Of a DNA stretch of 64,000 nt, positions 20,708 to 54,726 are shown piece by piece. Source of the DNA: Modicisalibacter xianhensis. GTDB taxonomy: Bacteria > Pseudomonadota > Gammaproteobacteria > Pseudomonadales > Halomonadaceae. The notes under the pieces are model-generated. The model made no database searches. It had not been told where the DNA came from and worked only from the letters and a program-made list of their open reading frames with translations. Each line of letters starts with the position of its first letter. Positions within the stretch are counted from its first letter, which is position 1. The stretch spans positions 1 to 64,000 of the forward strand of contig NZ_FOPY01000007.1 in assembly GCF_900113605.1 (NCBI RefSeq). The letters are read 5' to 3'. A program made the position numbers and the translations under genes.

Positions 20708-20794
20708 TTCACAAGACCTGCAAGGCCGGCAATGCCGGCCTTGCCTCGTTACGTGGGTATGTCCTGCGTCAGTGGCAGGATATCAGGAGGGGAT

Positions 20795-22714
20795 ATGCAG
20801 TCAGGTTCGCAGTTCGATGTCGGTCCATGGATCAACGAGGAATGGACCGCCAAGCTGGAAATGATCGGGCAGGAATATCAGGCCTTGATGCAGGAGCTCT
20901 TGACACGAGCGCTGCCCGGTGAAGCTGGCTCGACGATCTACGAGGACATGCGCGAGAGCCTGCGCGCAGGTGCCCAGGCGCTGGCCTTCAAGCCCTACGC
21001 GATCTACGGGGCGCACATGCGTCTTGCCCAGGATCAGGCTCGGCTCTGGCAGCAGACACTGCGCGAAGTCGCTGGGGATGGGGAGCCGGATGACCCGATC
21101 ATCGGACCGGAACCATCGGATCGGCGGTTCAAGGACGAGGCCTGGCACAAGGATCCTTATTACCGTTACATCATGCAGCACTACCTGCTGCTGGTGAGAC
21201 TGGTGAACGAGCTCGTCGAGAGCGTCGACAGCCTGCCGGACCAGCAGAAGCGCAGTCTGTCGTTCTATGTTCGCCAGTACGTCAATGCCATGGCACCGAC
21301 CAACTTCGTTACCTCCAATCCCGAAGTGATGCGTCGGACCCTGGAAACCAACGGGCAGAACCTGATCGACGGGTTGAAGCGGCTTCGTGAGGACCTGTCC
21401 AACTCCGCTGGTGGGCTCAACGTGGCGATGACCGACCGGGAAGCGTTTCGTATCGGCGATAACATTGCCGTCACGCCGGGCGCCGTGGTCTATGAGAACG
21501 AATTGATACAGCTGATCCAGTATCAGCCAACCACCGAGCAGGTATTCAAGACGCCGCTACTGGTCGTCCCGCCGTGGATCAACAAGTACTACATCCTTGA
21601 TCTACGCCAGGACAACTCGATGATGAAGTGGCTGGTCGACCAGGGCCACACCGTTTTCCTGATTTCATGGCGCAATCCGGGTGTCGAGCAGCGCGACATC
21701 ACTTGGGCCGATTACATGCAGATGGGGCCGATTGCCGCCATGGAGGCGATCGAGCAGGCGTGCGGCGAGAAGTCGGTCAACCTGCTCAGCTACTGTGTTG
21801 GCGGCACGCTTGCCGCCTCGACAGTGGCCTACCTGACCAGCACCCGGCGTGCCCGCAAGGTGCGCTCGGTCACCTACATGGCCACGTTGCAGGATTTTCG
21901 CGATCCTGGCGAGATCGGGGTGTTCCTCAGCGAGCCGGTCCTGCAGGGGCTCGAGCGGCAGTTGGAGGCCGATGGCTACCTGGATGGACGCGTCATGGCG
22001 TTTTCCTTCAACTTGCTGCGTGAGAACGACCTGTTCTGGTCGTTCTACATCAACAACTATCTCAAGGGCGAAACCCCGGCCGCCTTCGATCTGCTGTACT
22101 GGAATACCGATGGCACCAACCTGCCGGCAGCCACGCATGGCTGGTATCTGCGCAACATGTACCTCGAGAACCGGCTGGTCGAGCCCGGCGGCATCGAACT
22201 CGATGGGGTCAAGATTGACCTGCGCAAGATTTCTACGCCCAGCTACTTCATCTCCACTCGCGAGGACCACATCGCCAAGTGGCAGTCCACGTATTACGGC
22301 ACTCAACTGCCCAAGGGGCCGGTGACTTTCGTGCTGGGCGGCTCGGGACACATTGCCGGCATCGTCAATCCGCCGACACGCACCAAGTACGGCTATTGGA
22401 CCAATGACGAGCTTCCCGATACGCATGAGGCATGGCTGGAGGGCGCGACACAGCACGAAGGTTCGTGGTGGCCACACTGGCAGTCTTGGATGACCGACAA
22501 TGGCTATGTCGACACCGACAAGCAGGTGCCGGCACGCCAGCCCGGCGACGGTGAGTTGAAGATCATCGAGCCGGCTCCTGGGCGCTATGTCAAGCAGACC
22601 ATTCCGGAAGTGCTGGGACTGCTCGAGCGAGCGGCCGAGCATGCCGAGACAGCCGCAGGCGGCGAGGCCGAGGTGGCTGAATCATCCGGGCAGGAGCTTA
22701 GTCAGGAAAAATAG
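20795..22714 (+). CDS. phaC: Class I polyhydroxyalkanoate synthase
   Basis: 639 residues from the ATG at 20795, which follows AGGAGGGG. The alpha/beta-hydrolase catalytic domain begins near residue 250 (P-P-W-I-N-K-Y-Y-I-L-D-L) and carries nucleophile C334 in S-Y-C-V-G-G-T, with the histidine in G-G-S-G-H-I-A-G. The family box is normally G-x-C-x-G; here the first glycine is serine, which I recall being reported for other Halomonas synthases. It polymerises (R)-3-hydroxyacyl-CoA to PHA at the granule surface. The C-terminus has a Glu/Ala-rich extension of about 40 residues. With phaP it accounts for carbon storage. Confidence 0.95.
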   Translation: MQSGSQFDVGPWINEEWTAKLEMIGQEYQALMQELLTRALPGEAGSTIYEDMRESLRAGAQALAFKPYAIYGAHMRLAQDQARLWQQTLREVAGDGEPDDPIIGPEPSDRRFKDEAWHKDPYYRYIMQHYLLLVRLVNELVESVDSLPDQQKRSLSFYVRQYVNAMAPTNFVTSNPEVMRRTLETNGQNLIDGLKRLREDLSNSAGGLNVAMTDREAFRIGDNIAVTPGAVVYENELIQLIQYQPTTEQVFKTPLLVVPPWINKYYILDLRQDNSMMKWLVDQGHTVFLISWRNPGVEQRDITWADYMQMGPIAAMEAIEQACGEKSVNLLSYCVGGTLAASTVAYLTSTRRARKVRSVTYMATLQDFRDPGEIGVFLSEPVLQGLERQLEADGYLDGRVMAFSFNLLRENDLFWSFYINNYLKGETPAAFDLLYWNTDGTNLPAATHGWYLRNMYLENRLVEPGGIELDGVKIDLRKISTPSYFISTREDHIAKWQSTYYGTQLPKGPVTFVLGGSGHIAGIVNPPTRTKYGYWTNDELPDTHEAWLEGATQHEGSWWPHWQSWMTDNGYVDTDKQVPARQPGDGELKIIEPAPGRYVKQTIPEVLGLLERAAEHAETAAGGEAEVAESSGQELSQEK

Positions 22715-53116: not shown

Positions 53117-53674
53117 ATGTCCGACCCGGTCAAGCCATCCCTTTCCGAAAAATCGACACAGAGCAGGCTGGAGCGTCGTTGGGAACGCTTTTTATGGAAT
53201 TCCCGTCTCCTGGTCATGGCGGCAGTCATTCCCAGCCTGATTGGCGCCCTGGTGCTGTTCATCATCGGTACGCTCGATATCTTTGGCATCGTCATCGATG
53301 CCATTGCGTACTATCTGCTGGGTAGCGAGCAAGATATTCACGAAACGGTCGTGCCCAGCATTGTCATGGCCGTGGACATCTATCTCATCGCCATTGTGTT
53401 GCTGATCTTCGGGCTCGGCGTCTATCGTCTTTTCGTTTCGCCCATCGAGCAGGCCGAGGATTACGCGCCACGGCATCCTTTCAACGTCGAATCGTTCGAC
53501 CAACTGAAAGACAAGATTGCCCGTGTGGTCATCCTGGCCGTGATCATTGAGTTCTTTCGAGCCGTGGTGGATATCCGGTTTCAGACGCCTCTCGATGCGA
53601 TCTACCTCGCCCTGTCGGTGCTTGCTCTGGCCGTTGCGATCTATCTGATGAGCCTGACCCACAAAGGCGAATGA
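53117..53674 (+). CDS. YqhA-family (UPF0114) membrane protein
   Basis: 185 residues: a charged N-terminus, then membrane helices near residues 32-55, 62-80, 90-112, 140-158 and 162-180. The motifs S-R-L-L-V-M-A-A-V-I-P and Y-L-I-A-I-V-L-L-I-F-G-L-G-V-Y identify the UPF0114/YqhA family, which has no established function. The upstream gap holds a CTTACA half-site also seen next to terC. Confidence 0.82.
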   Translation: MSDPVKPSLSEKSTQSRLERRWERFLWNSRLLVMAAVIPSLIGALVLFIIGTLDIFGIVIDAIAYYLLGSEQDIHETVVPSIVMAVDIYLIAIVLLIFGLGVYRLFVSPIEQAEDYAPRHPFNVESFDQLKDKIARVVILAVIIEFFRAVVDIRFQTPLDAIYLALSVLALAVAIYLMSLTHKGE

Positions 53675-53796: not shown

Positions 53797-53960
53797 TAAA
53801 AAAACCCGGCGATACGCCGGGAGAGGAACGAGAACGAGACTGCTTGGGACATCAACATAAGCATGGGCATTACTGAGGTAAAAACATGCATGATTAAAAT
53901 CTAGCGGAACCAGCAAGAAGCGAATCGATTTTTTCGTAATTTAAGGTGGTTTTTTGTTAT
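53797..53960 (-). ncRNA. Possible minus-strand small RNA or leader with terminator
   Basis: A textbook minus-strand terminator lies at 53821-53798: a perfect 7-bp stem CCCGGCG/CGCCGGG with a 3-base loop and seven Ts. There is no minus-strand gene that it could end within 800 bases except the tRNA-Leu far upstream, so a short transcript must start in between; TAAAAT near 53960 could be a -10 box. Overlapping short frames run through the terminator and so are not convincing as proteins. The 5' end is a guess. Confidence 0.4.
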
Positions 53961-54342: not shown

Positions 54343-54360
54343 TGTCAGTTATCTCTTATA
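54343..54360 (+). promoter_or_regulatory. GacA-type upstream activating box
   Basis: TGTCAG-TTATCT-CTTATA matches the GacA box TGTAAG-N6-CTTACA at 10 of 12 specified positions with exact spacing. It lies about 55-73 bases before the likely start of the sRNA, where a CATAGT -10-like hexamer stands at 54404-54409. GacA boxes of this kind drive rsmX/Y/Z genes. Confidence 0.65.
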
Positions 54361-54414
54361 AGCTTAACTATCACAGGTTAAATAATCTGTGCTCCAAAGC
54401 AGGCATAGTGACTT

Positions 54415-54556
54415 ACGTAGACACGGAGTTGTCGCAATGGAACCCGGGCAAGGAAGCCTGATGAACCAAGGATGCATGAGCAGGATCGCTCATGGGTGGG
54501 CAGCAGGAAGCATAGCGCCACGCAAAGCCCGGCCTTCACAGGCCGGGCTTTATTAA
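54415..54556 (+). ncRNA. Rsm/CsrB-family regulatory sRNA (CsrA-sequestering)
   Basis: About 140 bases containing six GGA motifs (54425, 54439, 54452, 54470, 54483, 54506), the binding element of CsrA/RsmA. Three sit in hairpin loops: GACA-CGGAGT-TGTC (54420-54433), GGC-AAGGAA-GCC, and the 7-bp stem CATGAGC/GCTCATG with loop AGGATC (54475-54494). The transcript ends in a strong terminator and is preceded by a GacA-type box. Length, motif density, loop placement and promoter all match RsmX/Y/Z-type RNAs that titrate CsrA under GacS/GacA control. The 5' end is estimated. Confidence 0.72.
54524..54556 (+). terminator. Terminator of the Rsm-type sRNA
   Basis: A perfect 11-bp stem (54524-54534 with 54541-54551) around TTCACA, whose 3' arm ends in TTT and is followed by ATT. 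On the minus strand it could also stop read-through from tRNA-Leu. Confidence 0.85.
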
Positions 54557-54641
54557 TTGGAATTCCGGAAATAATTAATGCTCATGCGAGACGGTCTTAG
54601 GGAGAGCTGGCTTGCAACCTATTGATTCGTAAGCATTAAGT

Positions 54642-54726
54642 TGGTGCGGATGGGGAGACTCGAACTCCCACGCCGTGAGGCACTGGAACCTAAATCCAGC
54701 GTGTCTACCAATTCCACCACATCCGC
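54642..54726 (-). tRNA. tRNA-Leu (anticodon UAG)
   Basis: 85 bases on the minus strand, with acceptor GCGGATG pairing CATCCGC, discriminator A and encoded CCA (54644-54642). The anticodon arm CTGGA-TTTAGGT-TCCAG gives anticodon TAG, reading CUA and related leucine codons. The long variable arm is that of a class II tRNA, and the T loop GTTCGAGTC is intact. Confidence 0.97.

Follow-up and report, generated by a model that had tools for sequence, protein, structure and literature searches.

A predicted Rsm/CsrB-type small RNA of Modicisalibacter xianhensis belongs to a family of related copies with two conserved promoter boxes

Introduction

In the genome of the halophilic bacterium Modicisalibacter xianhensis, the gene of a UPF0114 protein (53117-53674, plus strand) and a tRNA-Leu gene (54642-54726, minus strand) are separated by a gap that raises two connected questions, namely whether it encodes a small RNA (sRNA) sponge for CsrA and, if so, which signals would govern the synthesis of this RNA. 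The gap lies within a 64-kb stretch of contig NZ_FOPY01000007.1, which is referred to as the window throughout and whose coordinates are used unless a contig is named. The original prediction, made from the sequence of the window, was that of an Rsm/CsrB-type sRNA preceded by a GacA box. Here, the unit is described part by part, followed by its relatives within and beyond the genome, its promoter and the regulatory genes in its surroundings.

Organization of the RNA unit in the window

All parts of the unit reside on the plus strand. At its upstream end, a GacA-type box (TGTCAGTTATCTCTTATA, that is TGTCAG-N6-CTTATA; termed box 1) occupies positions 54343-54360 with the spacing originally claimed; nowhere else in the 64 kb are 10 or more of the 12 positions of the GacA box consensus, TGTAAG-N6-CTTACA, matched. 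Its centre is placed at about -64.5 relative to the predicted transcription start. Box 2 (TATCACAGGTTA, 54369-54380), an imperfect palindrome, is the window copy of the palindrome TAACcTgGGTTA and is centred 23 bp from box 1, at about -41.5. The predicted -10 hexamer, CATAGT (54404-54409), was deduced from the anchoring of 55 promoters on box 2, and the window promoter features AG where the extended -10 element of the family has TG. From there, a predicted sRNA of about 140 nt would extend from 54416 to 54558, its putative start falling at 54415-54417.

The first stem-loop of this RNA, SL1 (54420-54433), pairs GACA with TGTC around a CGGAGT loop containing GGA, as judged from sequence and fold, and is separated from SL2 by a further GGA in the context ATGGA (54439-54441). 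SL2 (54445-54460), likewise recognized from sequence and fold, exposes an AAGGAA loop on a stem of CGGGC and GCCTG that contains the GGC/GCC pairing and includes one G-U pair. It is followed by the linker CCAAGGATG (54466-54474), the GGA of which is invariant among 62 sequences while the remainder is strongly conserved, and by SL3 (54475-54494), in which CATGAGC and GCTCATG enclose an AGGATC loop and which is backed by covariation in the same 62 sequences. Folding adds a weak SL4 (54503-54511), a short GC stem with an AGGAA loop, so that the three GGA hairpins originally described are all present along with a short fourth stem. The unit is closed by a terminator hairpin, AAAGCCCGGCCT-TCAC-AGGCCGGGCTTT, and a short T-rich tail (54524-54558; hairpin proper 54524-54551), as indicated by sequence, fold and pairing in 62 sequences. 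The terminator had been called strong; the hairpin exists, but its strength was not borne out, as a simple terminator scan did not include it among its terminators and the T-tract is short and lies partly within the stem. No open reading frame of at least 80 amino acids overlaps 54382-54640, in agreement with a gene-poor gap. Hence, every element named beforehand is confirmed to be present in the window sequence.

The six GGA motifs, starting at 54425, 54439, 54452, 54470, 54483 and 54506, do fall within 84 bases (54425-54508), though such a density is not rare by chance: at least six GGA occurred in 76 of 1000 dinucleotide shuffles of the window RNA, and six in 84 bases were reached from 13 start positions on the plus strand of the window (eight of them within the phaC frame) and from one on the minus strand. 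GGA density by itself was dropped as evidence because of these 13 plus-strand positions. As to the placement of the motifs, the fold puts four of the six into hairpin loops, an arrangement found in none of 1000 dinucleotide shuffles, and the folding energy corresponds to a z-score of -3.0, with none of 200 shuffles being equally low.

Conservation of the locus in two relatives

The locus was compared with those of Halomonas sp. McH1-25 (G001) and Modicisalibacter luteus DSM 23508 (G005), both of which carry the same genus label as the window genome (G000). In both relatives, conservation extends from the GacA box through the T-rich tail while the flanks have largely diverged, and over 145 nt of the RNA part, identity amounts to 93.8% and 92.4%, respectively. 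The UPF0114 gene is the upstream neighbour in both genomes. Downstream, the order UPF0114-sRNA-tRNA-Leu-bioD of the window is retained in G001; in G005 synteny is broken, since neither tRNA-Leu nor bio genes were found in the 6.4 kb that follow. In the same gap, the window also contains a minus-strand terminator (53805-53821; CCCGGCG/CGCCGGG plus T7), which resembles an element in the corresponding gap of G001 and G005 and may mark the end of a minus-strand transcript or short gene.

A family of related copies

By blastn, six matches were obtained within the genome itself and further ones in relatives, with 7 of 58 genomes containing matches. Two covariance models were subsequently built, R1 from 22 copies (alignment A1) and R2 from 62 copies (alignment A2), and the window copy, which was included in the construction of both, scores 128.4 bits with R1 and 108.4 bits with R2. 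A1 omits the long double copies L022 and L024 as well as the antisense L023. A2 omits 20 of 55 relatives (15 below 60 bits, two duplicates and three long ones), the G000 copies on contigs C21, C23 and C27, and some strong R1 hits, for example G011:C7:246148, G003:C1:2186778 and G002:C6:14215, along with others in G014, G018, G023 and G025.

With R2, 14 matches of at least 57 bits were obtained in G000, which represent 13 loci since C27 carries one double RNA. These are C19:334578, C31:84205, C25:54417 (the window copy), C30:6462, C30:5250, C28:66895, C30:7034, C28:327898, C16:219788, C30:8195, C27:19502-19758 (the double RNA), C21:4054 and C23:40198; ten of the 13 match by construction, because they are part of the R2 alignment, and those on C27, C21 and C23 stand outside it. 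At least six GGA are found at 11 of the 13 loci, the exceptions being C21:4054 with three and C23:40198 with five, and these two copies may be decaying. Four weaker matches of 26-33 bits with 4-8 GGA (C30:227903, C30:124636, C16:122398 and C21:58202) may represent divergent members. Within the taxonomic family, 112 of the 201 genomes sampled, from 14 of 24 genera, contain covariance model matches at E<=1e-6, and outside this family R1 matched 9 of 21 genomes at E<=0.01, the best score being 37.3 bits. The window RNA is thus very probably a real member of a set of about a dozen related copies, many of which carry both control sites, and given that so many copies share two such sites, the set of sponge RNAs operated by this branch appears to be unusually large.

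Several members of the family, or candidates for it, are organized in unusual ways. Four sRNA copies are packed into 3.1 kb on C30 (L027 5250-8340; G000:C30:5250-8340), interspersed with a Crp-type regulator gene and an SRAP gene; just upstream lie a second SRAP-like frame and a UmuC-like polymerase frame, both recognized by eye, and a Peptidase_S24 gene. The double RNA (L031 9002-9259; G000:C27:19501-19758) contains 14 GGA and a single terminator hairpin, scores 35.2 bits with the CsrB model and sits near a resolvase gene on a 22-kb contig. Inspection by eye of another genome revealed a very long CsrB-like stretch of tandem double-hairpin GGA units (L233; G011:C35:28800-30600), which is preceded by a box 2-like site and has apparently grown through local duplication. 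Finally, the minus strand of C28 contains a candidate for a divergent sRNA (L235; about 148167-148330; only 19.9 bits with the covariance model), whose eighth and last GGA is placed in the loop of a hairpin resembling a terminator.

Across the 62 sequences, all seven pairs of SL3 change on both sides and 95.4% of its cells are paired, the corresponding value for the terminator stem being 90.9%. Taken together, SL3 and the terminator comprise 107 double-change cells as opposed to 31 in shuffles, none of 500 of which was as high, and they exceed all 500 shuffles on every measure; in slid controls, pairing dropped to 23-51%. Moreover, 2.94 GGA per RNA are located in hairpin loops, compared with 0.52 in shuffles. 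In the MAFFT alignment, the 3' arms of SL1 and SL2 shift by one base between subgroups, as seen by eye; these two stems were therefore left out of the covariation count, which was confined to SL3 and the terminator.

Two boxes in the promoters of the family

A de novo motif search in the 62 upstream regions returned TGTcggcnATCTCTTACA, a GacA-type box, followed by the palindrome TAACcTgGGTTA. With refitted matrices, which were fitted to the same sequences that they scored, box 1 was detected in 45 of the 62 copies, box 2 in 54 and both in 38, while 16 copies have only box 2, seven only box 1 and one neither; 0.4% (box 1) and 3.8% (box 2) of shuffled upstream regions reached the respective threshold. 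The centres of the two boxes are 23 bp apart in 29 of the 38 copies with both and 45-46 bp apart in six, with spacings of 6, 22 and 29 bp occurring in one copy each. Where box 1 is distant, as in L010 and L014, a further site with 8 of 12 matches lies between the boxes. Among the ten G000 copies in the set, seven possess both boxes, two only box 1 and one (C31) only box 2. Searching with a joined pattern of box 1 and box 2 was abandoned as too strict, as a single site was found. Of the strict palindrome TAACCNNGGTTA, the genome contains two instances, one of which lies at an sRNA copy, which implies that most copies deviate from the strict form.

Anchoring of 55 promoters on box 2 revealed TGnCAnAnT, an extended -10 element, with the hexamer situated 30-35 bases to the right of the dyad. 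If transcription starts seven bases past the last base of the hexamer, box 2 would be centred at -41.5 and box 1 at -64.5. Both positions, like the putative start itself, depend on the predicted -10 element; given the latter, the box 2 of the family is a two-fold palindrome at the position of a class II activator.

Csr components and Crp/Fnr-type genes in the vicinity of the copies

The genome encodes CsrA twice, on C37 and at C28:327578, and contains a gacA orthologue above the cut-off of its model as well as a GacS-like kinase, which scores 631 bits and thus stays below the cut-off of 890 of the BarA/GacS model. The second csrA gene and the sRNA at C28:327898 are arranged divergently (L029 5573-6039; G000:C28:327578-328038), and in G001 and G005 two csrA genes are situated beside a related copy in the same divergent arrangement. 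With respect to targets, three GGA surround the ribosome-binding site of phaC (20778-20796), which makes phaC a possible target of CsrA; the motifs are weak evidence, because ribosome-binding sites often contain GGA.

The palindrome of box 2 resembles operators of the Crp/Fnr superfamily, such as the PrfA box. A scan of 20 proteins, mostly neighbours of copies, identified four Crp-type regulators, encoded beside the copies on C31, C30, C28:66895 and C21. No Crp-type regulator was found among the scanned neighbours of the window copy, implying that a factor binding to box 2 at this locus, if there is one, acts in trans. In seven genomes, 16 of 74 HTH_Crp_2 genes lie within 1.5 kb of a copy among the matches listed, compared with 0.58 expected, although the combined proximity P is overstated because orthologous loci are counted more than once. 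Individually, and again for copies among the matches listed, the counts are 4 of 16 in G000 (0.13 expected), 3 of 10 in G001, 4 of 16 in G005, 3 of 11 in G009, 0 of 7 in G027, 1 of 5 in G035 and 1 of 9 in G003. The count comprised copies of at least about 40 bits among the matches listed and Crp-type genes of at least 47 bits, HTH_Crp_2 being the only family considered; 16 of the 24 G000 matches (the eight weaker ones were dropped) and all 58 of the six other genomes were used, distances were measured from the match of the HTH domain, and the weak candidate C16:122398, likewise next to a Crp-type gene, was excluded. By eye, a long GGA-rich RNA with two box 2-like sites was also noticed after a Crp-type-like frame in G008. 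Judging from the form of the operator and the proximity of the genes, it appears moderately likely that the factor acting at box 2 belongs to the Crp/Fnr superfamily.

Comparison with known RNAs and operators

In the window, no sRNA family of Rfam was matched at its gathering score. The covariance comparison with the RsmX/Y/Z and CsrB models, which had been suggested as a check, yielded sub-threshold scores at best: in a 1.1-kb search the window copy aligned with the full RsmY model (RF00195) at 26.7 bits (E 3e-4), but this remains below the gathering score of 57, and the match was no longer listed when 18 loci (56 kb) were searched together. CsrB, RsmX and RsmZ likewise had no match at gathering score in the window and were not named among the matches listed for the 1.1-kb search, in which a single lower-scoring member of this clan went unnamed. 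In the 18-locus search, RsmY reached 21-22 bits at C28:327898, C30:6462 and C19, CsrB 35.2 bits at C27, and two of the weak candidates matched CsrB with 29 and rsmX with 29.5 bits, all of these being below gathering. The window RNA resembles RsmY of Pseudomonas, which also has a GacA-type box, in its size, GGA hairpins and terminator, yet differs by the presence of many copies per genome and by the addition of box 2 in 54 of 62 promoters. Compared with CsrB/RsmB (RF00018), the logic of the sponge is alike and the double copy on C27 matches weakly, whereas the window RNA is short and has no match at the gathering score of 71. Box 2 itself is similar to the PrfA box and to class II Crp/Fnr operators, which share a TTAAC-N4-GTTAA-like palindrome near -41.5, but organism and targets are unrelated to those of the PrfA system and the regulator is a candidate only.

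Whereas the class as such is known, the number of copies, the additional operator and the linkage to Crp-type genes and csrA set this family apart. P. syringae pathovars are reported to possess seven Rsm RNAs, RsmX1-5, RsmY and RsmZ (PMC6715622, PMC7600136), and thus resemble the present genome in having several short, GacA-linked sponge RNAs. This set, the largest that we met in print, compares with 13 loci here, 11 of which have at least six GGA, a further difference being that the copies here share another conserved operator and in some cases lie next to Crp-type or csrA genes. For Halomonas anticariensis, GacS/GacA is known, and a table from 2020 gives the corresponding sRNA as 'Unknown' (PMC7366521). 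No report of Rsm RNAs in Halomonadaceae appeared in the titles and beginnings of abstracts searched, a survey outside of which most subscription journals and supplements lie, and the main text of the InvenireSRNA paper mentions Halomonas, Chromohalobacter and Halomonadaceae zero times (PMC5568370).

Weighing of alternative explanations

The original assignment to the Rsm/CsrB class is upheld by the conservation of the unit in two relatives, the weak full-length match to RsmY, the covariation of SL3 and the placement of GGA in loops, and in addition by the GacA-type box that the de novo motif search returned for the family and by the genes for CsrA, GacA and a GacS-like kinase that the genome contains. 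Two explanations depart from this class. Dispersal over 13 loci with four of them in 3.1 kb on C30, the position of the C27 copy near a resolvase gene and the decayed appearance of two copies (three and five GGA) could suggest an intergenic repeat or the relic of a mobile element instead of regulatory RNAs; compensatory changes in the stems, the retention of GGA in loops, promoter boxes at fixed spacing and a window copy that is syntenic in G001 amid largely diverged flanks render this very improbable. Slightly less probable still is a structured leader or another class of sRNA in which GGA serves ribosome binding, an idea that draws on the occurrence of GGA in Shine-Dalgarno sites and on weak matches to rnk_pseudo (24 bits, E 0.16) and Acido-Lenti-1 (22.7 bits, E 0.012). 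These matches cover mostly the terminator, while the window RNA has a terminator hairpin of its own, is not overlapped by a frame of at least 80 amino acids over 54382-54640 and matches RsmY over the whole model.

A third explanation retains the Rsm-type sponge and concerns box 2, which might merely be a conserved part of the core promoter, such as a substitute for the -35 element or a site of DNA bending, in which case no second regulator would be devoted to it. The end of box 2 coincides with the expected beginning of a -35 element, no other conserved -35 hexamer was seen in the 55 promoters, the palindrome is imperfect in the window copy and the strict form TAACCNNGGTTA is confined to the two places mentioned, most copies deviating from it. 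On the other hand, the box forms a palindrome whose dyad falls on the class II position, occurs without box 1 in 16 of 62 copies while box 1 occurs without it in seven of 62, and Crp-type genes cluster next to the copies. We regard this core-promoter role as possible, if somewhat doubtful. Overall, it is highly likely, as far as sequence comparison can tell, that the feature in the window is an Rsm-type sponge RNA for CsrA equipped with a GacA-type box.

Proposed mechanism and implications

By analogy with its class, the RNA at 54416-54558 would bind CsrA dimers via the GGA in its hairpin loops and thereby lift CsrA off mRNAs. Phosphorylated GacA at box 1 (about -64) would drive transcription from the extended -10-like promoter, while a second factor, probably a member of the Crp/Fnr superfamily, would act jointly at box 2, at about -41.5 and thus in the class II position, such that GacA and the Crp/Fnr-type factor together would set the amount of the CsrA sponge. 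Since members of the family differ in carrying box 1, box 2 or both, several signals could feed one CsrA pool. A distributed sponge network is tentatively put forward as a possible model, in which at least a dozen short Rsm RNAs with modular promoters would allow GacA and several Crp/Fnr-type paralogues to pass independent signals to one CsrA pool, some of these paralogues being encoded beside their sRNA, at least one sRNA being divergent from its own csrA paralogue, and the members with only box 2 providing a Gac-independent input into the Csr system.

For the GacS/GacA system of Halomonas anticariensis, whose sRNA is the missing link in the table cited above, the family supplies candidate sRNAs. 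It also raises the question of why a bacterium would keep at least 11 sponges for two CsrA proteins, and the modular promoters suggest several input signals, including a Gac-independent one, as the reason. Relatives within Halomonas serve as hosts for the production of PHA, and the control of carbon storage in the present bacterium could have practical use.
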